Translations under genes and position numbers: made by a program
In this document: positions 7,948 through 45,265 of the stretch, piece by piece
Numbering within the stretch: the stretch's first letter is position 1
How the letters are laid out: each line of letters starts with the position of its first letter
Source of the DNA: a virus
DNA length: 55,451 bases
Direction: 5' to 3' (one strand)
Virus record (IMG/VR): IMGVR_UViG_3300017730_000011
Coordinates: 1 to 55,451 of that record
Notes under the pieces: model-generated
Database searches by the model: none
What the model was told of the DNA's origin: nothing
The model's input: only the letters and a program-made list of their open reading frames with translations

Positions 7948-8417
7948 ATTTTGATTCTCTTCGTAATAAATTTGAACAGTTAAGAGCAGATTGGGCGGAA
8001 GATTCTGCAGTTGATTTTCAGTTCAAGAGTAAACAGTATACCACAGACTTAGGACAATTAGCTCTTAACATCCCATTTCAACATAATAAATACTTAAACC
8101 ATTACACTGACATCTCTCAGATCAAAGCTTCACTTGAATTTGAGATCCGTAAATTGGTTAGGGAAAAGCGTGAGTATTACTCTGGAGAGGCAGACGCTAA
8201 AGTTTACGCCGCTAAACCATTTGGATCAAGCATTAAGACTTCCGAGAAAATGAAAACATACCTTGAGAGTGATGATGAGATCATTAACCTTGAGGCAAAA
8301 ATCAAGTATCTAGATCAGATGTTGTACTGGTTAGATCAAGTCATGCGTCAAATTTCTAATAGAGGGTTTCAGGTCAAGAGTGCTATTGAGTGGGAGAAAT
8401 TTGTTAACGGACAATGA
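7944..8417 (+). CDS. uvsY: Recombination mediator UvsY
   Basis: 157 residues (T4 UvsY: 137). UvsY loads the UvsX recombinase onto ssDNA covered by gp32. The protein is highly charged and helical, with an early FEQLRADWAEDSAVDF segment and later EAKIKYLDQMLYWLDQVMRQISNRGFQVKSA, the typical UvsY C-terminal half. It overlaps the preceding gene and uvsW by four bases (ATGA), a coupled uvsY-uvsW pair as in T4. Confidence 0.9.
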   Translation: MNFDSLRNKFEQLRADWAEDSAVDFQFKSKQYTTDLGQLALNIPFQHNKYLNHYTDISQIKASLEFEIRKLVREKREYYSGEADAKVYAAKPFGSSIKTSEKMKTYLESDDEIINLEAKIKYLDQMLYWLDQVMRQISNRGFQVKSAIEWEKFVNGQ

Positions 8418-9886
8418 TGACAACTCTCAGTATTAAAAAAAAGAACGAAGTTTACATTACAATTAATTCAAAGGAACCACATGTTCATCAAGAACTGTCA
8501 GACTACTTTACCTTTGAAGTTCCTGAAGCTAAGTTCTTAAAAAAGAATCCCAGATACAAATACTGGGACGGAACTATTCGTTTGTATTCACCAGGTACAG
8601 GTGAATTATATCATGGTCTAAGAAAACACTTAGAGACATGGGCATACGAAAGACAATATAAAGTTGAGTATGAAAGGAATGATTGGTATGGAGATGTTGA
8701 AGACCTAAACGGTTTTGTTTCTCCTGCTGGTGTAAAGACATTCATGGATAAAATTGTCCGTGGTGATATTCAACCTCGCGACTATCAATATCGTGCAGTC
8801 TACGAAGCTATAAAAAATAATAGAAAGTTACTTCTTTCTCCTACGGGATCTGGGAAGTCTCTTATGATTTATTCCCTCGTCCGATACTATACTGCTACCA
8901 ACAAGAAGACGCTGATCATCGTCCCTACTACGTCCTTGGTAGAACAGATGGTCAATGACTTTAACGATTACGGGTGGAATGCTGACGATCATGTGCATAA
9001 GATATATTCAGGCAAAGATAAGAATACTGACAAACCAATCATTATTTCAACCTGGCAATCCATCTACAAGTTTCCAAAAAGATACTTTGATGATATTGAT
9101 TGTGTTATCGGAGATGAGGCACACCTATTTAAGTCGAAGTCCCTCACAGGAATCATGACTAAGCTACACAATGCCAAGTATAGGTTTGGTTTTACTGGAA
9201 CCCTAGACGGGAGTAAAACTCACAAGTGGGTGTTGGAAGGATTGTTTGGTGATTGTGAACGTGTAACTAAAACAGATGATTTAATCAAATCTGGTTATCT
9301 CTCTAAGTTTAGAATAAAAATACTTTTGTGTAAACATGCTCCGCAACACTTTGAATCATATCATGATGAGATGGAATATCTCGTAGAACATAAAGGAAGA
9401 AATAATATTATTAAAAACCTAGTTAAAGACATTGAGGGTAACACCCTAGTGCTATTTAACTATATTGAAAAGCATGGGGAACCACTTTATGAGTTGATAA
9501 ATAATACCATAGACCCAGAACGAAAATTATTTTTTGTTCATGGTGGTACTGATGTAGAAGATAGAGAAGCTGTTCGTCAAATTACCGAGACGGAAAATAA
9601 CGCTGTTATTGTTGCTTCTTACGGAACCTTTTCTACAGGAATTAATATTAAACGATTACACAATATTATATTTGCTTCCCCAAGTAAGTCACGCATTCGT
9701 AACCTCCAATCAATTGGTCGTGTACTTAGGAAAGGTGAAGGTAAAGATATTGCAACTTTATACGATATCGCTGATGACATTGGCGGTCAGAATTATACGC
9801 TTCGGCACTTGAATGAAAGAGTCAACATTTATAATGATGAAAATTTTAAGTATGAGGTAATAAAAGTAAACCTTAGAGCAAGTTAA
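8414..9886 (+). CDS. uvsW: RNA-DNA and DNA helicase UvsW
   Basis: 490 residues (T4 UvsW: 503). A superfamily 2 helicase that unwinds R-loops and branched DNA, switching origin-dependent to recombination-dependent replication. Visible motifs are Walker A in SPTGSGKS, DEAH box in IGDEAHLF, motif III in FGFTGTLDG and motif VI in QSIGRVLRKGEG. The N-terminal ~110 residues carry the YKYWDGTIRLY motif typical of UvsW. Two ATGs stand in tandem at the start (8414 and 8417). Confidence 0.96.
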   Translation: MMTTLSIKKKNEVYITINSKEPHVHQELSDYFTFEVPEAKFLKKNPRYKYWDGTIRLYSPGTGELYHGLRKHLETWAYERQYKVEYERNDWYGDVEDLNGFVSPAGVKTFMDKIVRGDIQPRDYQYRAVYEAIKNNRKLLLSPTGSGKSLMIYSLVRYYTATNKKTLIIVPTTSLVEQMVNDFNDYGWNADDHVHKIYSGKDKNTDKPIIISTWQSIYKFPKRYFDDIDCVIGDEAHLFKSKSLTGIMTKLHNAKYRFGFTGTLDGSKTHKWVLEGLFGDCERVTKTDDLIKSGYLSKFRIKILLCKHAPQHFESYHDEMEYLVEHKGRNNIIKNLVKDIEGNTLVLFNYIEKHGEPLYELINNTIDPERKLFFVHGGTDVEDREAVRQITETENNAVIVASYGTFSTGINIKRLHNIIFASPSKSRIRNLQSIGRVLRKGEGKDIATLYDIADDIGGQNYTLRHLNERVNIYNDENFKYEVIKVNLRAS

Positions 9887-21342: not shown

Positions 21343-21514
21343 AGCATTGTTTCATGCTACAATGAACCTACCCCACGCTGCTGCTCATTGTGGAATGACA
21401 GAGCGTGAAATGAAAATGATCTTTCGCGAATACCTTAAATACCATGCCCCAGACATTGAAGTCATTGAAGACACCCCTCAGGTATCCAGGCGGGAAGAGT
21501 CGTGCCCTGAGTAA
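21257..21514 (+). CDS. Small protein, possibly the 3' half of a split gene
   Basis: Open from a TTG at 21257 to 21514 (85 codons). The convincing part begins around TTPENVQEANEALFHATMNLP, continues AAAHCGMTEREMKMIFREYLKYH, a helix-turn-helix-like pattern, and its end overlaps the methylase by 71 bases. An internal ATG at 21361 is an alternative start. See the preceding frame for the idea that both belong to one gene. Confidence 0.55.
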   Translation: MKDLKTNQQDTGHTSKVKTTPENVQEANEALFHATMNLPHAAAHCGMTEREMKMIFREYLKYHAPDIEVIEDTPQVSRREESCPE

Positions 21515-22283
21515 ACTCTTTCAGTACATTCCTAACCTGAAAGATTACACTGAGTATCGTGAACCATTTGTTGGTGGTGGATCTGTAGCATTAGAAATTG
21601 GCAAAAGGTATCCACACCTAAACATCTGGGTAAACGATTTGTATGGACCACTCTATAACTTTTGGCGAGTGCTTCAAGATCAAGGACAAGAACTTCGTGA
21701 CCAGTTAGTCCAACTCAAGAATCGTCACCCAGAACCAGTATCAGCAAAACTATTATTTCTAGAAGCTAAGGAGAAACTAAACGATGATTCAACATCCAAC
21801 CTATCTGCTGCTGTGTGTTTTTATATTGTTAATAAGTGCTCTTTCTCTGGTCTCACTGAATCCAGTTCCTTCAGCAAGCAAGCGTCAGATAGCAATTTCT
21901 CGATGCGAGGCATTGATAAACTCCCTGAATATTCAGGAATGATTTCTAAGTGGGAGATCACTAACCTCAGTTACGAACAACTTCTTACTGATGATAAGAA
22001 TGCTTTCACTTATCTAGATCCTCCTTATGAGATTGGTTCTAATCTCTATGGTAAGAAAGGTAATATGCATAGTGGTTTTAACCATGATCATTTTGCTGTC
22101 AAGTGTGATCGATTTATTGGTCCACAACTTGTGTCTTATAATTCATCACAACTTATCAGAGATCGTTTCGATGAGTGGACAGCTGCTGAATTTGCACACA
22201 CTTACACCATGAGGAGCGTGGGGAGTTATAATACAGATCAAGCAGCTCGTAAGGAACTAGTCCTTTTTAATTATGAAGTGTGA
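21444..22283 (+). CDS. dam: Dam-type DNA adenine N6-methyltransferase (D12 class)
   Basis: 279 residues. The N-terminus TPLRYPGGKSRA, SAM-binding EPFVGGGSVAL and catalytic YLDPPYE identify the D12/Dam group of alpha-class adenine methyltransferases (T4 Dam: 259). It would methylate adenine in a short target, protecting phage DNA or marking replication. ATG 21444 is required because the conserved start lies at residues 10-21, so the overlap with the preceding frame is real. Confidence 0.93.
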   Translation: MPQTLKSLKTPLRYPGGKSRALSKLFQYIPNLKDYTEYREPFVGGGSVALEIGKRYPHLNIWVNDLYGPLYNFWRVLQDQGQELRDQLVQLKNRHPEPVSAKLLFLEAKEKLNDDSTSNLSAAVCFYIVNKCSFSGLTESSSFSKQASDSNFSMRGIDKLPEYSGMISKWEITNLSYEQLLTDDKNAFTYLDPPYEIGSNLYGKKGNMHSGFNHDHFAVKCDRFIGPQLVSYNSSQLIRDRFDEWTAAEFAHTYTMRSVGSYNTDQAARKELVLFNYEV

Positions 22284-27468: not shown

Positions 27469-27641
27469 ATAAGAAAGTCTTTGTAGTCACATGGACTAAC
27501 CATCTTGTCGGTCAAGTAGGACCCGAGGACATTAAGTGCTTTGAGGACTACAAAACTGCTCTTGGTTTTGCTAGACTAATGAGCAAAAATTATAATTATG
27601 TAAACTTTTACGAGGACGAAGCAACACAATGGGATTCTTAA
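27465..27641 (+). CDS. Small hypothetical protein between gp43 and uvsX
   Basis: 58 residues from ATG 27465 in an ATGA overlap: [19 protein letters not shown], then [19 protein letters not shown], ending 13 bases inside uvsX. Short alpha/beta layout. Function unknown. Confidence 0.6.
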
Positions 27642-28642
27642 ATTCTGTAATTAAAGATAGTGGCAATGAATTTGCTGGTTTGGTTAGTGAAGGAGTCGCT
27701 GCTGGCGACATTACTGATTACGTTGATACTGGCAGTTATATCTTTAACGCCTTGGTTAGTGGTTCGTTGTATGGAGGTCTTCCTTCAAACAAAGTCACCG
27801 CTCTTGCAGGAGAATCAAGCACTGGAAAAACTTTTTTTGCTCTTAGTGTCGTTCGTAATTTCCTCCGCGATAATCCTACAGGTGGCGTCATTTATTTTGA
27901 AACTGAATCCGCCATTTCCCGTGACATGATTGAGTCGCGTGGTATTGATTCTCAACGCATGGTTTTGTTTCCTGTCTCAACTATTGAAGAGTTCAGGACT
28001 CAAGCTTGTCGTATCGTTGACAAGTATATGAAAGAACCTAAAGACAAACGTGAACCTATGATGTTTGTGTTAGATTCTCTTGGTATGCTTTCAACTAACA
28101 AGGAGATGGAAGACGTTGCTAACGATAAGCAGGTCAGGGACATGACTAAGAGTCAGTTGATCAAGGGTGCCTTTCGTGTGCTTACACTTAAACTGGGTCA
28201 AGCACAAGTTCCTATGATTGTTACCAACCATACATATGATGTTATCGGTTCCTATGTTCCGATGAAAGAAATGGGTGGTGGTACAGGTCTTAAGTATGCT
28301 GCATCTACTATCATCTATCTTGGTAAAAAGAAAGAGAAAGATGGTACTGAATTGGTAGGTAACATCATCAAGTGTGAAGCAAAAAAATCACGTTTAACTA
28401 AGGAGGGTAGTAAGATTGAGACACGTCTATTTTTTGACGACCGTGGACTGGACAAATATTACGGGTTATTGGAGTTGGGTGAACAATACGGGGTCTTCCA
28501 GCGGGTTGGTAATCGTATTAAGGTTGGTGAATCTTCTGTTTATCCTAAATCTATTCTCTCAAGTCCTGAGAAGTATTTCACTGAAGAAGTGATGGCAAAA
28601 CTAGAAGAAGCAGCTAAACAAGAATTCACCTATGGCAATTGA
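27629..28642 (+). CDS. uvsX: RecA-like recombinase UvsX
   Basis: 337 residues (T4 UvsX: 391). Forms filaments on ssDNA and drives strand exchange for repair and replication start. Walker A is GESSTGKT; the ETESAI segment and LDSLGML Walker B are in order, followed by [12 protein letters not shown] and the [14 protein letters not shown]-binding loop region. The C-terminal acidic tail is short. A terminator follows the stop by 14 bases. Confidence 0.96.
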
Positions 28643-28655
28643 CAAGCTGTCTACA

Positions 28656-28678
28656 GGGGGTTGCAAGACCCCCTTTTT
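28656..28678 (+). terminator. Intrinsic terminator after uvsX
   Basis: GGGGGT/ACCCCC 6-bp stem, six-base loop and TTTTT. The loop and descending arm overlap the -35 box and spacer of the next promoter. Confidence 0.88.
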
Positions 28679-28689
28679 CATTGTATAGT
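28661..28689 (+). promoter_or_regulatory. Sigma70-type promoter before the endonuclease/methylase pair
   Basis: TTGCAA (28661-28666), 17-base spacer, TATAGT (28684-28689). Transcription would start near 28696, which excludes the ATG at 28690 and favours ATG 28717 with its CGAGGA ribosome binding site. Like the promoter at 23956, it is nested in a terminator. Confidence 0.65.
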
Positions 28690-28716
28690 ATGTCTATCAA
28701 CCATCGAGGATTACCC

Positions 28717-29406
28717 ATGGATCTCATAACGTTCAAGCAAAAATTTAATGCGATCAAAGAACGTGGTTACATTAAAACCCACCGTACAGGTAACACTGGT
28801 GTGGGTCACACCTTCGAGCAAGAATTGGGACTGGAAGAGAATAACATTGCAGGACCAGATATTGATGGCAATGAGTTAAAGACAGCACGTAAAGGTGCTG
28901 GTGGTAAGCAAACACTGTTCGCTAAAGAGGGTGATTGGGTTGTACCCCAGAGAGATTATATTGAAACATATGGTTTCCCTCACACCACAAAGATTGGTGA
29001 GTTGAGTGGACAATCTACTGTAACTAAAACTGTTAATAAGCGTGGTCTTCAGATCGTGACCACTGATGACTACTGTGCTATCTGTCATGGCAATGTTATT
29101 ATTGTTATGTGGGATTGGGACACATTGATTAATCAGTTTGCTAAGAAGTTTCCTGCATGTGTGAAAGTATTTGCTGACGTTGAGAAACGTGACGGTGTAG
29201 AATACTTCCATTACAATGAAGCATACCGTTTCATTGGTACTGACAAGAACTTGTTTCGCACTGCAATCGAGAATAATATGATTGCTATTGATATTCGTAT
29301 GCGTACACAGAAGATGATTGGCAAATCTCTTCGTAATCGTGGTACTGCATTCCGTATGAATCATGGTAAAATGGAAGAACTATTTGTTAAGGAGAGCATC
29401 AATTGA
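28717..29406 (+). CDS. MvaI/BcnI-like restriction endonuclease
   Basis: 229 residues. NTGVGHTFEQELGLEENN followed by GPDIDGNELKTARKG matches the MvaI/BcnI family order, and the catalytic core reads D48-x4-E53-x-K55 of the PD-(D/E)XK fold, intact. MvaI-type enzymes cut short C-rich sites such as CCWGG and are structurally close to the nickase MutH. The start at 28717 is set by a GAGGA box and the promoter. Its end overlaps a DNA methyltransferase gene (TTGA), the layout of a type II restriction-modification unit. Specificity cannot be read from sequence. Confidence 0.8.
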   Translation: MDLITFKQKFNAIKERGYIKTHRTGNTGVGHTFEQELGLEENNIAGPDIDGNELKTARKGAGGKQTLFAKEGDWVVPQRDYIETYGFPHTTKIGELSGQSTVTKTVNKRGLQIVTTDDYCAICHGNVIIVMWDWDTLINQFAKKFPACVKVFADVEKRDGVEYFHYNEAYRFIGTDKNLFRTAIENNMIAIDIRMRTQKMIGKSLRNRGTAFRMNHGKMEELFVKESIN

Positions 29407-30260
29407 AGGATACTATTCTCTACGGTGACTGTCGTGAAACTCTTAAAGAGTTTGATAGTAAAGCTAGGATGTGTGTTACCTCACCACCTTACTATGGTCT
29501 ACGTAACTATGGTGGTGAAGAAGATCAGATTGGTCTGGAACAAACACCAGAAGAATATGTTAACAATCTTGTAAAGGTTTTTCGTGAAGTAAGAAATTGT
29601 CTTACTGATGATGGAACATGCTGGGTTAATCTTGGTGATAGTTATTACAACTATAGACCAGGTAAAGGTCAAGCTATTCATAAACAATCAGTATCTAAAA
29701 CTAACCAAGATTTACCTAGCACATGTGCCAGACGAGGTAACAAACTAGAAGGTCTTAAAGAAAAAGATCTTATTGGTATTCCTTGGATGTTTGCTTTTGC
29801 TATGAGAGCAGACGGATGGTATCTAAGACAAGATATTATTTGGAATAAACCTAATCCAATGCCAGAGAGTGTGAGAGATAGATGCACTAAATCTCACGAG
29901 TATATTTTCTTGTTTAGTAAAAGTCAAAATTATTATTTTGATGTTAATGCTATCAAAGAATCAACTGTGGATGGTAAGGGGTTGAAGCGTAAGAAAACTG
30001 TATGGGAAATTAAAACTAAACCATACAAGGGAGCACACTTTGCTGTGTATCCACCAGAGTTAATTGAACCATGTATCAAAGCTGGTAGTGAAGAAGGTGA
30101 TCTTGTATTAGATCCATTTATGGGATCTGGTACTACTGCCTTGGTTGCCAAATCATTACAAAGACATTATTTGGGTTGCGAATTACATGAAGACTATGGT
30201 AAACTAATTCAAACAAGGTTAAGTGAAAAATCCTTTGCTAGGTTAAATTTTAATGATTGA
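29403..30260 (+). CDS. Beta-class DNA methyltransferase (N4-cytosine or N6-adenine)
   Basis: 285 residues. Motif IV TSPPYY is at residues 26-31 and motif I DPFMGSGTT at about 238-246, i.e. catalytic motif before SAM-binding motif, which defines the beta class. SPPY occurs in both m4C and some m6A enzymes. The TTG start at 29403 overlaps the endonuclease stop; the next ATG would remove part of motif IV. The C-terminus overlaps helicase gp41 by eight bases. It probably protects the sites of the neighbouring endonuclease, but it could be a solitary modifier. Confidence 0.88.
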   Translation: MKDTILYGDCRETLKEFDSKARMCVTSPPYYGLRNYGGEEDQIGLEQTPEEYVNNLVKVFREVRNCLTDDGTCWVNLGDSYYNYRPGKGQAIHKQSVSKTNQDLPSTCARRGNKLEGLKEKDLIGIPWMFAFAMRADGWYLRQDIIWNKPNPMPESVRDRCTKSHEYIFLFSKSQNYYFDVNAIKESTVDGKGLKRKKTVWEIKTKPYKGAHFAVYPPELIEPCIKAGSEEGDLVLDPFMGSGTTALVAKSLQRHYLGCELHEDYGKLIQTRLSEKSFARLNFND

Positions 30261-31638
30261 ACGGATTGAAGAAACTATCCTCAGAAACCTCCTACATAAC
30301 GAGGAGTATTATCGAAAGGTAGTCCCATTTCTCAAAGCAGAATACTACGAGAATTATCATGAGAAGATTATCTTTGAGGAGATTGCCGAGTTTTCTTCTA
30401 AGTACGACAAAGTTCCTACTAAAGAAATTCTTACGATTAACTTACAAAATCGTAATGACCTTACTGACGAATCGTTTCAAAGTTCGGTACAGACAGTATC
30501 CTCCTTATCAGACGAATGGGTTGACCAAGAGTGGCTCCTCGATGCAACAGAAAAATGGTGTCAAGACAGAGCAATCTATCTCGCCCTTATGTCCTCGATC
30601 AAGATCGCAGATGGAGGCGATAAAAAACTTTCGAGAGATGCGATACCCTCCATACTCCAAGAAGCCTTGGCGGTATCGTTCGACGAACACATAGGACATG
30701 ATTATATTGAACAAGCAACAGACAGATATGAATTCTACCATCGCAAAGAAGAGAAGGTTCCCTTTGATCTTGAAAAGTTTAACTTTATCACGAAAGGTGG
30801 TATCTCTAACAAGACTCTCAATGTCGCTCTTGCTGGTACAGGTGTCGGGAAGTCTCTATTCATGTGCCATGCAGCTGGTGCCGCTCTCTCACAGGGGTAC
30901 AACGTTCTCTACATTACATGTGAGATGGCAGAGGAAAAGATTGCTGAACGAATTGACGCAAATCTTTTAAACGTTGCTGTAAAAGATATTACAGAATTAC
31001 CTGAGGTTCTTTTTACCAGTAAGGTTAATGAGATCGCTAGGAAAACTCAGGGCAAACTTATTATCAAGGAGTATCCAACAGCTTCTGCACATGTGGGACA
31101 TTTTAAAGGACTTCTAAGCGATCTCAGATTAAAAAAAGATTTTAAACCAGATCTTATATTCATTGATTATTTAAATATATGTGCAAGCGTGAGGTACAAA
31201 GGTGCCGTTGTTAACTCGTATACCTATGTTAAGGCGATTGCTGAGGAGCTTCGGGGTCTTGCTGTGGAACATAACGTCCCTATTGTTAGTGCTACTCAGA
31301 CCACTCGTTCTGGTTTTGGCAATAGCGATCCAGATCTTACCGATACTTCTGAGTCTTTTGGTCTTCCTGCCACTGCTGATTTTATGTTTGCCCTTATCTC
31401 TACTGAGGAGTTGGAACAACAAGGTCGCATCATGGTCAAACAACTTAAAAACAGATACTCAGACATCGTTACCTCACGAAAATTCATGGTGGGAATTGAC
31501 AGATCGAAGATGAGGCTGTATGATGTTGCTGATGATGCCTCAGCTATTGGTATCAATGAAGAAGCTCCTGGTGAGGACTTCCAGCAATTTGCTGACACAC
31601 AATCTAGACTATCTAAATTTGCCGAGTGGAACGTATGA
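30253..31638 (+). CDS. 41: Replicative DNA helicase gp41 (DnaB-like)
   Basis: 461 residues (T4 gp41: 475). Walker A in LAGTGVGKSLFM; CEMAEEKIAERI; Walker B LIFIDYLNIC; and the SATQTTRSGF motif, then LKNRYSD. The N-terminal ~170 residues are the helical domain. It forms the hexameric helicase with primase gp61, encoded at 38976. Confidence 0.96.
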   Translation: MIERIEETILRNLLHNEEYYRKVVPFLKAEYYENYHEKIIFEEIAEFSSKYDKVPTKEILTINLQNRNDLTDESFQSSVQTVSSLSDEWVDQEWLLDATEKWCQDRAIYLALMSSIKIADGGDKKLSRDAIPSILQEALAVSFDEHIGHDYIEQATDRYEFYHRKEEKVPFDLEKFNFITKGGISNKTLNVALAGTGVGKSLFMCHAAGAALSQGYNVLYITCEMAEEKIAERIDANLLNVAVKDITELPEVLFTSKVNEIARKTQGKLIIKEYPTASAHVGHFKGLLSDLRLKKDFKPDLIFIDYLNICASVRYKGAVVNSYTYVKAIAEELRGLAVEHNVPIVSATQTTRSGFGNSDPDLTDTSESFGLPATADFMFALISTEELEQQGRIMVKQLKNRYSDIVTSRKFMVGIDRSKMRLYDVADDASAIGINEEAPGEDFQQFADTQSRLSKFAEWNV

Positions 31639-39965: not shown

Positions 39966-42277
39966 CAAACGGACATGGAATTAAAGTTCGCAAGCGTGAC
40001 GGGTCTGAGACCGCCCTCAACCTAGATAAGATTCACAAGGTAGTAGAAGAAGCTTGCGAAGGGTTAGGGAGCGGTGTGAGTGCCTCTCAGGTAGAGATGA
40101 ACTCTGGTCTACAATTCTTTGATGGAATTGAAACCAAAGACATTCAAGAAATTTTGATTCGTTCGGCAAGTGATTTGATTAATTTAGATTCTCCTAACTA
40201 TCAGTTTGTTGCTGCTCGTCTTCTACTTTATGCTGTCTACAAACAGGTTTTTGGATCCGAATGGGTCCAAGGTCTTCCTAGTGTTTATGATCATGCATGT
40301 CACTGCACTGACAAACAAGTTTATGATAAAGATATCCTAGGTAAATATACAAAGGAAGAGTGGAGCAAGATCAATTCTTGGATTGATCATGAACGTGATA
40401 TGATATTCACCTATGCTGGTTTACGTCAGGTAGTGGATAAATATCTTGTTCAGGATCGTAGCTCTGGTGTGGTTTACGAATCACCCCAGTACATGTACAT
40501 GATGATTGCAGTAACACTATTCCAAAATTACACAGACAATCGTCTTGAATATGTCCAAAAATACTACAACGCAATCAGCAAACACAAAATCAACATCCCA
40601 ACGCCAATCATGGCAGGTGTTAGAACGCCTCTTCGGCAGTTTGCGTCTTGCGTTCTGGTTGATGCTGACGACACCTTGGATAGTATTTTTAGTAGTGATA
40701 TGGCCATCGGTCGCTATGTCGCTCAGAGGGCTGGCATTGGTATCAACGCAGGTCGTATCAGGGGCATCAACGCTAAAATCCGAGGCGGAGAAGTACAGCA
40801 CACTGGCGTTGTTCCTTTCCTTAAAAAATTTGAATCGACTGTACGATGCTGTACGCAAAACGGAATCAGAGGAGGATCGGCAACAGTCCACTTCCCAATC
40901 TGGCACCAAGAAATAGAAGACATCCTTGTTCTCAAGAACAACAAAGGTACAGAAGACAATCGAGTGAGGAAACTTGACTACTCAATCCAAATTTCAAAAC
41001 TTTTCTACGAACGTTTCATTGAGAATGGAGAGGTTAGCTTATTCTCACCGCATGACGTACCAGGTCTCTATGATGCTTTTGGTACTGATGACTTTGACAC
41101 TCTATATCGGATGCATGAACTCAATGATGCTGTTCCGAGAAAGACTATCGGGGCACAGGAATTAATTCTTTCATTGCTTAAGGAGAGAGCAGAGACTGGT
41201 CGTATCTATATCATGAATATTGATCACTGCAACGAGCATTCTTCTTTCAAAGACAAGATTAATATGAGTAACCTCTGTCAAGAGATTACCCTACCTACTG
41301 TACCACTTAACCATATTGATGGTGAAGGAGAGATTGCATTGTGCATTCTATCTGCTATCAACGTTGGTAAGATCAACAAGTTAGATGAATTGGAAAATCT
41401 CTGTGACCTAGCAGTCCGTGGTCTAGAGGAATTAATTGACTATCAGAACTATCCTGTAGAAGCTGCAAAACGTAGCACTATCAATCGTCGTTCTCTTGGT
41501 ATTGGTTACATCGGACTATCACACTACCTAGCAAAACATGGATATAAATATGACAACCCTGCAGCATGGAAATCAGTCCACGACTTGTCTGAATCTTTCC
41601 AGTTCTATCTACTCAAGTCAAGTAACACCCTTGCCAAAGAAAAAGGTAAGTGTGGTTATTTCGATAGAACAAAGTATGCAGATGGTATCCTCCCAATCGA
41701 CACTTACAAGCGTGACATTGATGAGTTCTGTGGGGCGGAGTTAAGTCATGATTGGGAAAATCTTAGAGAATCTATCGTCACCCACGGTCTTAGGCACTCA
41801 ACACTGTCCGCACAAATGCCTTCAGAGAGTAGTTCCGTTGTGTCAAACGCAACCAATGGAATCGAACCACCTAGAGGATTCTTGTCCACTAAAAAATCAA
41901 AGAAAGGACCTCTTAAGCAGATTGTTCCACAATACGGCACATTAAAAACCAATTATACATTGCTGTGGGATATGAAGGATAATGATGGGTACATTAAAAT
42001 TGTATCTGCCATGCAAAAATTCTTTGACCAAGCAATTTCTGGCAACTGGAGCTATAACCCAGAAAATTATGACAATAATGAAGTACCTGTATCAGTTATG
42101 GCAGGTGACCTTCTTAAAACATATAAGTATGGATGGAAGACTTCCTACTATCAAAATACATACGATCAAAAAGGAGAAGAACCTGAATTTACAGACGAAA
42201 AGAAACAGAGTATCGAAGATTTACTTACAAACATTTTGGAAACAGAGGAAGAAGATTGTGACAGTTGCAAAATTTAG
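39962..42277 (+). CDS. nrdA: Ribonucleotide reductase alpha subunit NrdA
   Basis: 771 residues from ATG 39962, which overlaps the primase stop (ATGA). Class Ia RNR large subunit. ATP-cone at the N-terminus (KVRKRDGSETALNLDKIHKV), the substrate-site Cys in FASCVLVDADDTLDSI, the NLCQEI active-site motif, SSVVSNATNGIEPPR, and a redox CDSC pair at the very C-terminus. Reduces NDPs to dNDPs for phage DNA synthesis. Confidence 0.97.
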   Translation: MTNGHGIKVRKRDGSETALNLDKIHKVVEEACEGLGSGVSASQVEMNSGLQFFDGIETKDIQEILIRSASDLINLDSPNYQFVAARLLLYAVYKQVFGSEWVQGLPSVYDHACHCTDKQVYDKDILGKYTKEEWSKINSWIDHERDMIFTYAGLRQVVDKYLVQDRSSGVVYESPQYMYMMIAVTLFQNYTDNRLEYVQKYYNAISKHKINIPTPIMAGVRTPLRQFASCVLVDADDTLDSIFSSDMAIGRYVAQRAGIGINAGRIRGINAKIRGGEVQHTGVVPFLKKFESTVRCCTQNGIRGGSATVHFPIWHQEIEDILVLKNNKGTEDNRVRKLDYSIQISKLFYERFIENGEVSLFSPHDVPGLYDAFGTDDFDTLYRMHELNDAVPRKTIGAQELILSLLKERAETGRIYIMNIDHCNEHSSFKDKINMSNLCQEITLPTVPLNHIDGEGEIALCILSAINVGKINKLDELENLCDLAVRGLEELIDYQNYPVEAAKRSTINRRSLGIGYIGLSHYLAKHGYKYDNPAAWKSVHDLSESFQFYLLKSSNTLAKEKGKCGYFDRTKYADGILPIDTYKRDIDEFCGAELSHDWENLRESIVTHGLRHSTLSAQMPSESSSVVSNATNGIEPPRGFLSTKKSKKGPLKQIVPQYGTLKTNYTLLWDMKDNDGYIKIVSAMQKFFDQAISGNWSYNPENYDNNEVPVSVMAGDLLKTYKYGWKTSYYQNTYDQKGEEPEFTDEKKQSIEDLLTNILETEEEDCDSCKI

Positions 42278-43439
42278 AACTAACGAACCCATGAGTAGTG
42301 TAGAAGGCATGACAGTATTCAATACTGATCAAGTAGATACAACTAAACAAACTATGTTCTTTGGTCCTCCTCTGGGAGTACAGAGATATGACAAATTTAG
42401 GTATCCCATTTTTGATAAGTTGACACAAAATCAACTTGGTTTTTTCTGGAGACCTGAAGAAGTATCTCTGCAGAAAGATAGAGCAGATTATCAAACATTA
42501 AACAATGCACAAAAACACATATTTACTAGCAATCTCAAATATCAAATCCTCTTGGACTCTGTACAAGGTCGTGGTCCTGGCATGGCTTTCATGCCTTATT
42601 GTTCTTTACCCGAGCTAGAAGGATGTATGAACATCTGGCAGACCATGGAGATGATTCATAGTCGTTCATACACACATATTATTAAAAATGTATATCCAGA
42701 CCCCTCTGTTGTCTTTGACCACATTCTAGACGACGAGAAGATCCTCTCACGAGCACAATCAGTTACTAAAGCATACGATGAGTTTATTAATATTGCTCAG
42801 AGATATGGAACTGGTAGCATGTGGAAGGATACTTGGAAAGATTCCCCAACAGCAAAGTGGGAAATCAACGATCTCAAGAGAAATCTATATAGAGCAGTCG
42901 CTAATGTCTACATTCTTGAAGGCATTAGATTCTACGTATCTTTCGCTTGTTCTTTTGCTTTCGGTGAACTTAAACTCCTTGAAGGATCAGCTAAGATCAT
43001 TGGTCTTATTGCGAGAGATGAATCTCAACACATGACTGTTACTCAAAACATTCTTAACAACTGGAAAAAAGACGATGACCCTGAAATGAGGGAAATTGCT
43101 AAGGAAGAGGAAGAGAATGTTTATCAAATGTTCCGTGATTCTGTAGAAGAAGAGAAGCAGTGGGCAGAGTATCTGTTTAAAGATGGATCTATCATTGGTT
43201 TGAATGATAAATTACTACAGAAATACGTTGAGTGGACTGCTAATCGTCGTTTGAAGTCTATCGGACTCAATGCAATCTTTGATACTCCTATTACCAACAA
43301 CCCTCTTCCTTGGACTGCACACTGGTTATCCTCTAAGGGTATGCAGGTAGCTCCACAGGAGACAGAGGTTGAATCTTACCTAATTGGTAGTATTAAACAA
43401 GACGTAAAGAAAGATACTTTTGCAGGATTTAAATTATAA
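42258..43439 (+). CDS. nrdB: Ribonucleotide reductase beta subunit NrdB
   Basis: 393 residues from GTG 42258, preceded by AGAGGAAGA; ATG 42291 is an alternative without a clear ribosome binding site. Diiron and radical residues are visible: SLQKDRADY, TMEMIHSRSYTH (Glu, His and radical Tyr) and ARDESQHMTVTQ (Glu and His). The gene overlaps nrdA by 20 bases. Works with NrdA; a glutaredoxin at 47541 could recycle the enzyme. Confidence 0.96.
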   Translation: MTVAKFRTNEPMSSVEGMTVFNTDQVDTTKQTMFFGPPLGVQRYDKFRYPIFDKLTQNQLGFFWRPEEVSLQKDRADYQTLNNAQKHIFTSNLKYQILLDSVQGRGPGMAFMPYCSLPELEGCMNIWQTMEMIHSRSYTHIIKNVYPDPSVVFDHILDDEKILSRAQSVTKAYDEFINIAQRYGTGSMWKDTWKDSPTAKWEINDLKRNLYRAVANVYILEGIRFYVSFACSFAFGELKLLEGSAKIIGLIARDESQHMTVTQNILNNWKKDDDPEMREIAKEEEENVYQMFRDSVEEEKQWAEYLFKDGSIIGLNDKLLQKYVEWTANRRLKSIGLNAIFDTPITNNPLPWTAHWLSSKGMQVAPQETEVESYLIGSIKQDVKKDTFAGFKL

Positions 43440-43441
43440 CT

Positions 43442-44068
43442 ATGGACCTTTGGAAAAATTACAAAACATCTCTTGCAAACGTTTTTCCAGATATGAAATT
43501 TGTTCAGCGACATGCTGAATGGACTAATGATAAGGATGTGAACTTGACTGCTGATTTGTATTCAGGTAAACATCTAATCAAATCAAGACAAGTTGAAATT
43601 TGGGATGATAAATCTTGCAGCATTTATAACAACATATTGTATCCCAGAACAGGATCAAACTTACCCTGTTTTGGTATGGATCTTATGGGAATGAGTGACA
43701 AGAGAGTTGTTATTGTGTTTGATTTTCAACACCCTGTAGAAAAATACTTGTTTTATACATCAGATCTACCTAAAGTAGAAGGAACGTATAGATTTTTTGA
43801 AGCAGGCAATCATTTTTCTGACAATCTTATTGTTAGATATTGTAAACCCGATGAGGTAGATGAACATCTTCCTTTGTTTACAAAATATATTCAATATTAT
43901 AAAAACATGCTAGATGAGCATCAACCAATTGGTACTGATACTACACAGTATGTTGATTTTGACAGATACATGATAAGACTTGATCCTATATCTGGGTATT
44001 TGTCCAATAGATTTGGCAAGGAAAAATCTCAAACCTTGATTAAAGAATTCTTTTTCAGTTATGCTTAA
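43442..44068 (+). CDS. pebS: Phycoerythrobilin synthase PebS
   Basis: 208 residues. Ferredoxin-dependent bilin reductase of the phage PebS type, which converts biliverdin to phycoerythrobilin in two steps. The stretches NNILYPRTGSNLPCFGMDLM, VIVFDFQHPVEKYLF, YRFFEAGNHFSDN and VRYCKPDEVDEHL match what I remember of PebS from Prochlorococcus phage P-SSM2 (233 residues), with a shorter N-terminus. The two catalytic Asp fit Asp80 and Asp181. Two bases after nrdB and two before pcyA. Confidence 0.92.
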   Translation: MDLWKNYKTSLANVFPDMKFVQRHAEWTNDKDVNLTADLYSGKHLIKSRQVEIWDDKSCSIYNNILYPRTGSNLPCFGMDLMGMSDKRVVIVFDFQHPVEKYLFYTSDLPKVEGTYRFFEAGNHFSDNLIVRYCKPDEVDEHLPLFTKYIQYYKNMLDEHQPIGTDTTQYVDFDRYMIRLDPISGYLSNRFGKEKSQTLIKEFFFSYA

Positions 44069-44785: not shown

Positions 44786-45265
44786 GTGGAAAAATTTAAA
44801 GAATATGAGAATGCCTGGATCTATCATGGCAGCGTCTTTGACGGGTCTCTTATTGGGGACAACTATGGTTTTGTTTACAAGATTACCTGTAGCACCACCA
44901 ACCGTTCCTACATCGGTAGAAAATACTTCTGGCAAAAACGAAAGCCTAGAGCTGTGGGTCAAACTACCAAGCGGCGAAGAGTTACTAGTGAAAGTGACTG
45001 GAGAAAATACTACGGAAGTTGTCCAGAGCTTAAAGAAGATGTTAAACAGTATGGACGGGAGTCTTTTGCTAGAGAAATCCTCTCCCTACACAGGACACCT
45101 GGAAGGGTCAACTATGAGGAAACTCGTCAGCTCTTCCTCTGTGACGTTTTGACAAAAGCCTTGACAGACGGCACCCCTGCCTACTATAATTCAAACATAC
45201 TCGGACGTTACTACAGGAAAGACTATTTTGATTTTGGAAATGATTCTGGCGTTGACGCCTGCTGA
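44786..45265 (+). CDS. GIY-YIG family endonuclease-like protein
   Basis: 159 residues from GTG 44786. GFVYKITCSTTNRSYIGRKYF has the GIY-YIG pattern (FVYKI ... YIGRK), and SDWRKYYGSCPELKEDVKQYG, then NYEETRQLFLCDVL, are recurrent in cyanophage copies. The catalytic Arg and Glu seem present. It could be a homing-type or repair endonuclease; its presence between pcyA and a hydrolase would fit a mobile insertion. Confidence 0.82.
   Translation: MEKFKEYENAWIYHGSVFDGSLIGDNYGFVYKITCSTTNRSYIGRKYFWQKRKPRAVGQTTKRRRVTSESDWRKYYGSCPELKEDVKQYGRESFAREILSLHRTPGRVNYEETRQLFLCDVLTKALTDGTPAYYNSNILGRYYRKDYFDFGNDSGVDAC

Follow-up and report, generated by a model that had tools for sequence, protein, structure and literature searches.

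A probable restriction-modification unit in a T4-like cyanophage, with an MvaI/BcnI-type nuclease gene placed beside a resident methyltransferase

The type II restriction endonucleases R.MvaI (PDB 2OA9/2OAA), which recognizes CCWGG, and R.BcnI (PDB 2ODH/2ODI), which recognizes CCSGG, belong to one family, whose monomeric enzymes cleave one strand, reverse their orientation and then cleave the second (PMC4081073). Cellular members occur in restriction-modification loci of Parageobacillus (L125), a Thermoproteota MAG (L126) and a bacterium (L127), where the nuclease gene adjoins one for a methyltransferase with an SPPY motif. Among lytic DNA viruses, complete nuclease-methyltransferase pairs are likewise present in chloroviruses and Marseilleviridae (PMC7253447, PMC7248222), but these infect eukaryotes, and their nucleases come from families other than the one described below. 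For the marseillevirus units a role of the phage-conflict type, directed against rival viruses, has been argued (PMC7253447), and orphan viral methyltransferases have been proposed as shields against the nucleases of other viruses (PMC7253447, PMC7248222). Phages often carry a methyltransferase gene on its own, the purpose of which is for the most part a matter of guesswork. In an open-access subset of the literature, no earlier report of the nuclease-methyltransferase pair presented here was found for cyanophages.

The stretch of DNA analysed, called the window, makes up a virus record of 55 kb (55,451 nucleotides; IMGVR_UViG_3300017730_000011) and is, like the majority of its relatives, a genome fragment. 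Its replication block is syntenic with those of the Synechococcus phages S-RSM4 and ACG-2014j and, judged by this synteny, the window is from a T4-like cyanophage of the Kyanoviridae. Its UvsX and gp41 proteins are 90.5% and 85% identical, respectively, to those of ACG-2014j. In both reference phages uvsX and gp41 overlap directly, whereas in the window a gap of 1.6 kb separates them and is filled by a nuclease gene and a methyltransferase gene, the 3' end of the latter being overlapped by the start of gp41. In phage S-SSM4 a 2OG-Fe(II) oxygenase sits between the same two genes, so the junction is one that takes up genes. The features of the window locus are as follows.

27629..28642, plus strand: uvsX (RecA-like recombinase), flanking the insertion on its left; PF00154, E 2e-12
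28655..28674, plus strand: terminator-like hairpin followed by a T run; by itself a chance-level scan match
28661..28689, plus strand: predicted sigma70-like promoter, TTGCAA - 17 - TATAGT; alone a chance-level scan match
28703..28716, plus strand: leader ATCGAGGATTACCC with a GAGG ribosome-binding site; recurs in relatives
28717..29406, plus strand: MvaI/BcnI-family type II restriction endonuclease, 229 aa; PF15515, profile, fold and invariant residues
29403..30260, plus strand: beta-class DNA methyltransferase of the SPPY type, 285 aa, TTG start; PF01555, PADLOC and orthology
30253..31638, plus strand: gp41 (DnaB-like replicative helicase), right flank; PF03796, E 5e-18

The nuclease reading frame begins with an ATG at 28717, and its stop codon ends at 29406. 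Residues 8–223 of the 229 match Pfam family PF15515 (MvaI_BcnI) with an E-value of 3.8e-38 and 132 bits, the curated cut-off being 25 bits. Searched against the PDB, the single sequence finds R.MvaI at 4e-17, while a profile of 18 relatives run against all PDB sequences matches R.MvaI (4.8e-27) and R.BcnI (4e-22) and nothing else. The AlphaFold2 model has a pLDDT of 80, with low confidence in the active-site loop (42–51). Its fold matches MvaI and BcnI chains at E-values of 1e-12 to 1e-16, and each of the six PDB matches with E<0.001 is one or other of these enzymes. When aligned to MvaI and BcnI, the core D48-x4-E53-x-K55 is intact, and E34, D48, E53 and K55 are invariant in the 18 relatives. 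By profile, fold and catalytic residues, the protein is a bona fide member of the MvaI/BcnI family, as a preliminary description of the sequence had proposed from its D-x4-E-x-K core; the profile search and the inspection of relatives for active-site loss, both named there as checks, bear this out. The likeness to R.MvaI and R.BcnI extends over the full length, the core and the fold, but the window nuclease is only about 25% identical to them, is phage-encoded, and has a beta-class phage methyltransferase as its partner. Sequence comparison gives a dN/dS of about 0.12 (range 0.08–0.18), by which the gene is under purifying selection, and no broken copy was found among 19 distinct full-length sequences.

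The preliminary description had also considered a MutH-like enzyme, nicking DNA for repair or along with replication. The place of the gene inside the replication block would suit such a role in conjunction with UvsX and gp41, as would the way in which monomeric MvaI/BcnI enzymes cut strands singly (PMC4081073), but it is very improbable: MutH is missing from the top 50 fold matches, which MvaI and BcnI lead, and Sau3AI, a relative, is reached only at an E-value of 0.6. Furthermore, close relatives carry the pair elsewhere in the genome with neither uvsX nor gp41 adjoining, and these two genes are directly adjacent without the nuclease in S-RSM4 and ACG-2014j.

The TTG start of the methyltransferase lies within the nuclease stop codon, giving a TTGA overlap at 29403–29406. 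The protein matches PF01555 (E 7e-57) and the PADLOC model MTase_II (E 2.9e-110), and TSPPYY (residues 26–31) precedes DPFMGSGTT (237–245), which is the beta-class order; the class, the two motifs, the overlap and the placement of the pair between uvsX and gp41 all agree with what had been described. SPPY as motif IV is usual for N4-cytosine methyltransferases, and the enzyme probably makes an N4-cytosine mark. It is orthologous to the cyanophage T4-GC 38 'dam' protein, with 65–72% identity to those of P-SSM2, P-SSM4, S-SSM5, P-HM1 and others, but none of these phages has an MvaI/BcnI nuclease beside 'dam'. With 37 INPHARED records at 60–80% identity and at least 597 IMG/VR stretches, the methyltransferase gene is, on this distribution, common and resident in cyanophages, in most cases as a solitary gene. 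The window also carries a second DNA methyltransferase (21444-22283), of the D12 class and N6-adenine type (PF02086, E 1e-32), which is 84% identical to the gene at the same place in ACG-2014j.

The nuclease is far less common, occurring in one of 50,697 INPHARED records (an unannotated single-cell amplified virus) and in about 40 IMG/VR contigs, and this rarity shows that it is not generally needed. Where it does occur, it lies directly upstream of a T4-GC 38-type methyltransferase in 36 of 41 IMG/VR loci. Two of the remaining loci end at a contig edge, one (L165) has a different beta-class methyltransferase, and two (L026 and L030) have no methyltransferase nearby. The L026 nuclease (8001-8693 of IMGVR_UViG_3300005611_000007) is 65% identical to that of the window and comes from a more distant T4-like phage; its 127 kb fragment carries no PF01555 methyltransferase, and either the phage has other protection, or the gene is missing from the fragment, or the specificity differs. 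The nuclease and methyltransferase might be mere neighbours rather than cognate, the methyltransferase being a defence against restriction by the host and the nuclease working independently of it. The L026 locus would accord with this, as would the discordant gene trees and the pairing of cellular relatives with another type of methyltransferase (both described below). Such an arrangement is nevertheless improbable, because the adjacency recurs in several genomic places and across nuclease clades that have diverged, and in most cases the stop and start codons overlap.

Three states of the uvsX-gp41 junction are found: closed, methyltransferase alone, and nuclease plus methyltransferase. In 21 IMG/VR loci the methyltransferase stands alone, its TTG start overlapping the uvsX stop. 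The sequence CAATTGA forms this overlap (TTGA) in the methyltransferase-only phages; in the window it ends uvsX (28636..28642, plus strand) and again ends the nuclease gene (29400-29406). Relative to the methyltransferase-only state, the window and its relatives L001-L011 have hairpin, promoter, leader and nuclease gene added between uvsX and the methyltransferase. Another nuclease, 54–58% identical to that of the window, occupies the same place in L045, L160 and L161 without hairpin and promoter, and in L045 its ATG overlaps the uvsX stop. Both uvsX-site nuclease alleles are present in a single metagenome (IMG 3300021368; L011 and L161). Nuclease-plus and nuclease-free alleles that share both flanks are found at two places, namely uvsX/gp41 and a position behind a helicase gene (L031, L151 and L157 versus lone-methyltransferase loci). 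For the pairs of L012-L024 and L027, the flank comparison turned up no methyltransferase standing alone between the same neighbours on both sides, so that joint transfer of the two genes can also occur.

The control elements ahead of the nuclease gene show a similar recurrence. In consensus scans of the window the promoter and terminator matches, among them the sigma70-like promoter that the preliminary description had given the unit, are, taken alone, no better than chance. The leader ATCGAGG...CCC-ATG does recur, however: L012, L016, L018 and L019 have almost the same sequence ahead of their nuclease genes, in different genomic places, and it appears to travel with the nuclease gene. A like hairpin and T run precede the nuclease in L020-L023, at unrelated sites, and a TATAAT or TATAGT box does so in L021-L024. 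The hairpin at 28655..28674 is a predicted terminator, and would set the unit apart from uvsX transcription.

The trees of the two genes disagree strongly. Between the window and L045 the nucleases are 58% and the methyltransferases 93% identical, while between the window and L012 the values are 86% and 72%. In AU tests on the nuclease data, a clade of the uvsX-site loci {window, L006, L011, L045} is rejected (p 2.4e-5); on the methyltransferase data, {window, L006, L011, L012} (p 1.5e-4), {L031, L045} (p far below 1e-10) and a single clade of all nuclease-linked methyltransferases (p 3e-6) are rejected, these p-values being rough since the groups were named after the trees had been seen. This conflict indicates that nucleases entered, or replaced one another, upstream of a methyltransferase already resident, both at uvsX and, independently, at the helicase locus. 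The cyanophages would thus differ from the Marseilleviridae, where both genes are present or absent together, in that a nuclease was added to a methyltransferase already in place. Between the window and L006, the nuclease genes have diverged more than the methyltransferase genes; a special nuclease swap between these two was considered and rejected, as similar divergence peaks occur elsewhere along both genomes.

Nor does the phage pair appear to be simply a captured operon of the cellular MvaI/BcnI type, because the cellular relatives adjoin a different type of methyltransferase. In L125-L127 the nuclease is 31–38% identical to that of the window, but the methyltransferase gene is convergent, its product has an FxGSGT-type motif before SPPYGDSRTTVAYGQFSR rather than the beta order (in full in L125 and L126), and the stop/start overlap of the phage kind is absent. 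Two MAG loci carry the phage pair itself at 82–86% identity (L123, 'Euryarchaeota archaeon TMED129'; L124, 'Rhodopirellula sp. NAT69'). The second shares its match position with an IMG/VR phage contig (L020/L146), and both are probably phage contigs misbinned into MAGs.

With respect to the recognition site, the residues corresponding to H77 and H219 of BcnI, which we take to be the positions reading the central base pair, match MvaI in the phage proteins (TLF[T/A]K and GTAFR) and not BcnI (TLFHK and GPHLR). These residues hint at CCWGG as the best guess. CCAGG does occur at 8591, 15164 and 21486, as previously listed, and the window has 42 CCWGG sites in all, so protection would be needed were CCWGG the site. 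The ratio of observed to expected CCWGG is 0.75 in phages without the methyltransferase versus 0.5–0.6 in carriers, and the motif counts show no CCWGG avoidance in methyltransferase-free phages. Across carriers, methyltransferase-only phages and phages with neither gene, none of CCWGG, CCSGG and all 4- and 5-base palindromes behaves as the site of the unit should. CCWGG and CCSGG counts are normal in L026, where no 4- or 5-base site is eliminated. To gain a nuclease next to an existing methyltransferase would be survivable only if that methyltransferase already protected the genome, and a nuclease gained at hardly any place other than beside this methyltransferase is what one would predict of cognate enzymes. 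The best indirect support for a shared specificity would be the occurrence of two divergent nuclease clades beside near-identical methyltransferases.

One palindrome, CCGG, is absent from the window (0 versus 27 expected), from the L012 contig (0/47), from 40 kb of the L028 contig (0/36) and from the uvsX-site methyltransferase-only loci (0/26). It is present at normal levels in L021 (52/47) and L026 (98/93), is seen 15 times versus 26 expected in ACG-2014j, and was rejected as the site of the unit on account of the normal counts in the nuclease carriers L021, L020 and L029.

Taken together, the two genes probably form a functional type II restriction-modification unit in a lytic, T4-like cyanophage, with the nuclease as a plug-in beside a resident methyltransferase. 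Family, fold, catalytic residues, adjacency in most loci and purifying selection all favour the type II layout that had been proposed at the outset; of that earlier reading, the restriction-modification unit has held up and MutH has not, while the residence of the methyltransferase and the late arrival of the nuclease are new. From sequence we infer that the unit is active, that its two enzymes have one specificity, which DNA it attacks and how the phage benefits. The unit would have been assembled inside phage genomes. An old and often solitary cyanophage methyltransferase would methylate the phage's own DNA, and an MvaI/BcnI-type nuclease gene would then have been inserted directly upstream with the TTGA overlap kept, that of the window bringing along a terminator, a promoter and a ribosome-binding site of its own. 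The nuclease would act as a monomer, nicking first one strand and then the other at a short site (CCWGG as best guess). Its targets would be whatever DNA in the infected cell lacks the methyl mark, whether of co-infecting phages without the methyltransferase, of the host chromosome, or of both, and packaged phage DNA would be immune, being methylated already.

The clean presence or absence at one site, CAATTGA at both ends, the repeated insertions and the mosaic divergence along neighbouring genomes would also be expected of a selfish, homing-like gene, which cuts nuclease-free genomes at mixed infection and is copied by recombination, with the methyltransferase incidental. That the nuclease is of this kind is quite unlikely, since its family is one of restriction and not homing enzymes, it adjoins the methyltransferase at unrelated genomic places, and recipients that already have the methyltransferase would be protected from cutting.

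Rival exclusion and breakdown of host DNA would both result from the same activity, and sequence cannot separate them. It is somewhat unlikely that the main task of the nuclease is to degrade the host chromosome for nucleotide recycling, as in chloroviruses, with the exclusion of rivals secondary. Cyanomyoviruses lack denA, ndd and denB, and their route of host DNA degradation has been described as open (PMC2984593), which favours this role, as does the presence of nrdA, nrdB and mazG in the window. Against it, the nuclease occurs in only a small minority of cyanophages, the polymorphism at one site among close relatives is better explained by conflict between phages than by a basic requirement of metabolism, and the marseillevirus unit did not degrade host DNA (PMC7253447). 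For some lineages, the nuclease is nonetheless a candidate for host DNA breakdown in T4-like cyanophages without denA, ndd and denB (PMC2984593).

The repeated gain of cutters beside the same protector points to an exchangeable weapon that attacks unprotected DNA in the infected cell, and the one-site polymorphism, the rare nuclease and the common lone methyltransferase fit phage-phage conflict. A tentative extension, which may well prove wrong, is that solitary 'dam' gives immunity against the nucleases of rival cyanophages, and that nucleases plug in beside it and turn shield into weapon, the alleles of the junction then being closed, shield only, and shield plus weapon. In this reading the nuclease would spread to places where the recipient is already immune. 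The locus offers a natural series, from no gene through methyltransferase alone to methyltransferase with either of two divergent nucleases, and so makes the idea of orphan methyltransferases as shields directly testable.

Other viral loci show related arrangements. In an unrelated viral contig, L165:4809-6367, a very divergent MvaI/BcnI-like nuclease is directly followed by another beta-class SPPY methyltransferase, by sequence an independent viral pairing. In P-SSM4 (L036:2359-4957; P-SSM4 40590-43188) a gene annotated as 'restriction endonuclease II' stands in a row with two methyltransferase genes, one weakly Eco57I-like and the other that of T4-GC 38; the first of the row has no Pfam or NCBIfam match, and the row is possibly a different phage restriction-modification unit beside the same protector. 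Elsewhere in the window, 44786-45265 encodes what may be a homing nuclease, a GIY-YIG endonuclease of the SegE type (PF19835, E 3.5e-50), and 43442-44068 is a pigment gene of host origin, for a ferredoxin-dependent bilin reductase (PF05996).
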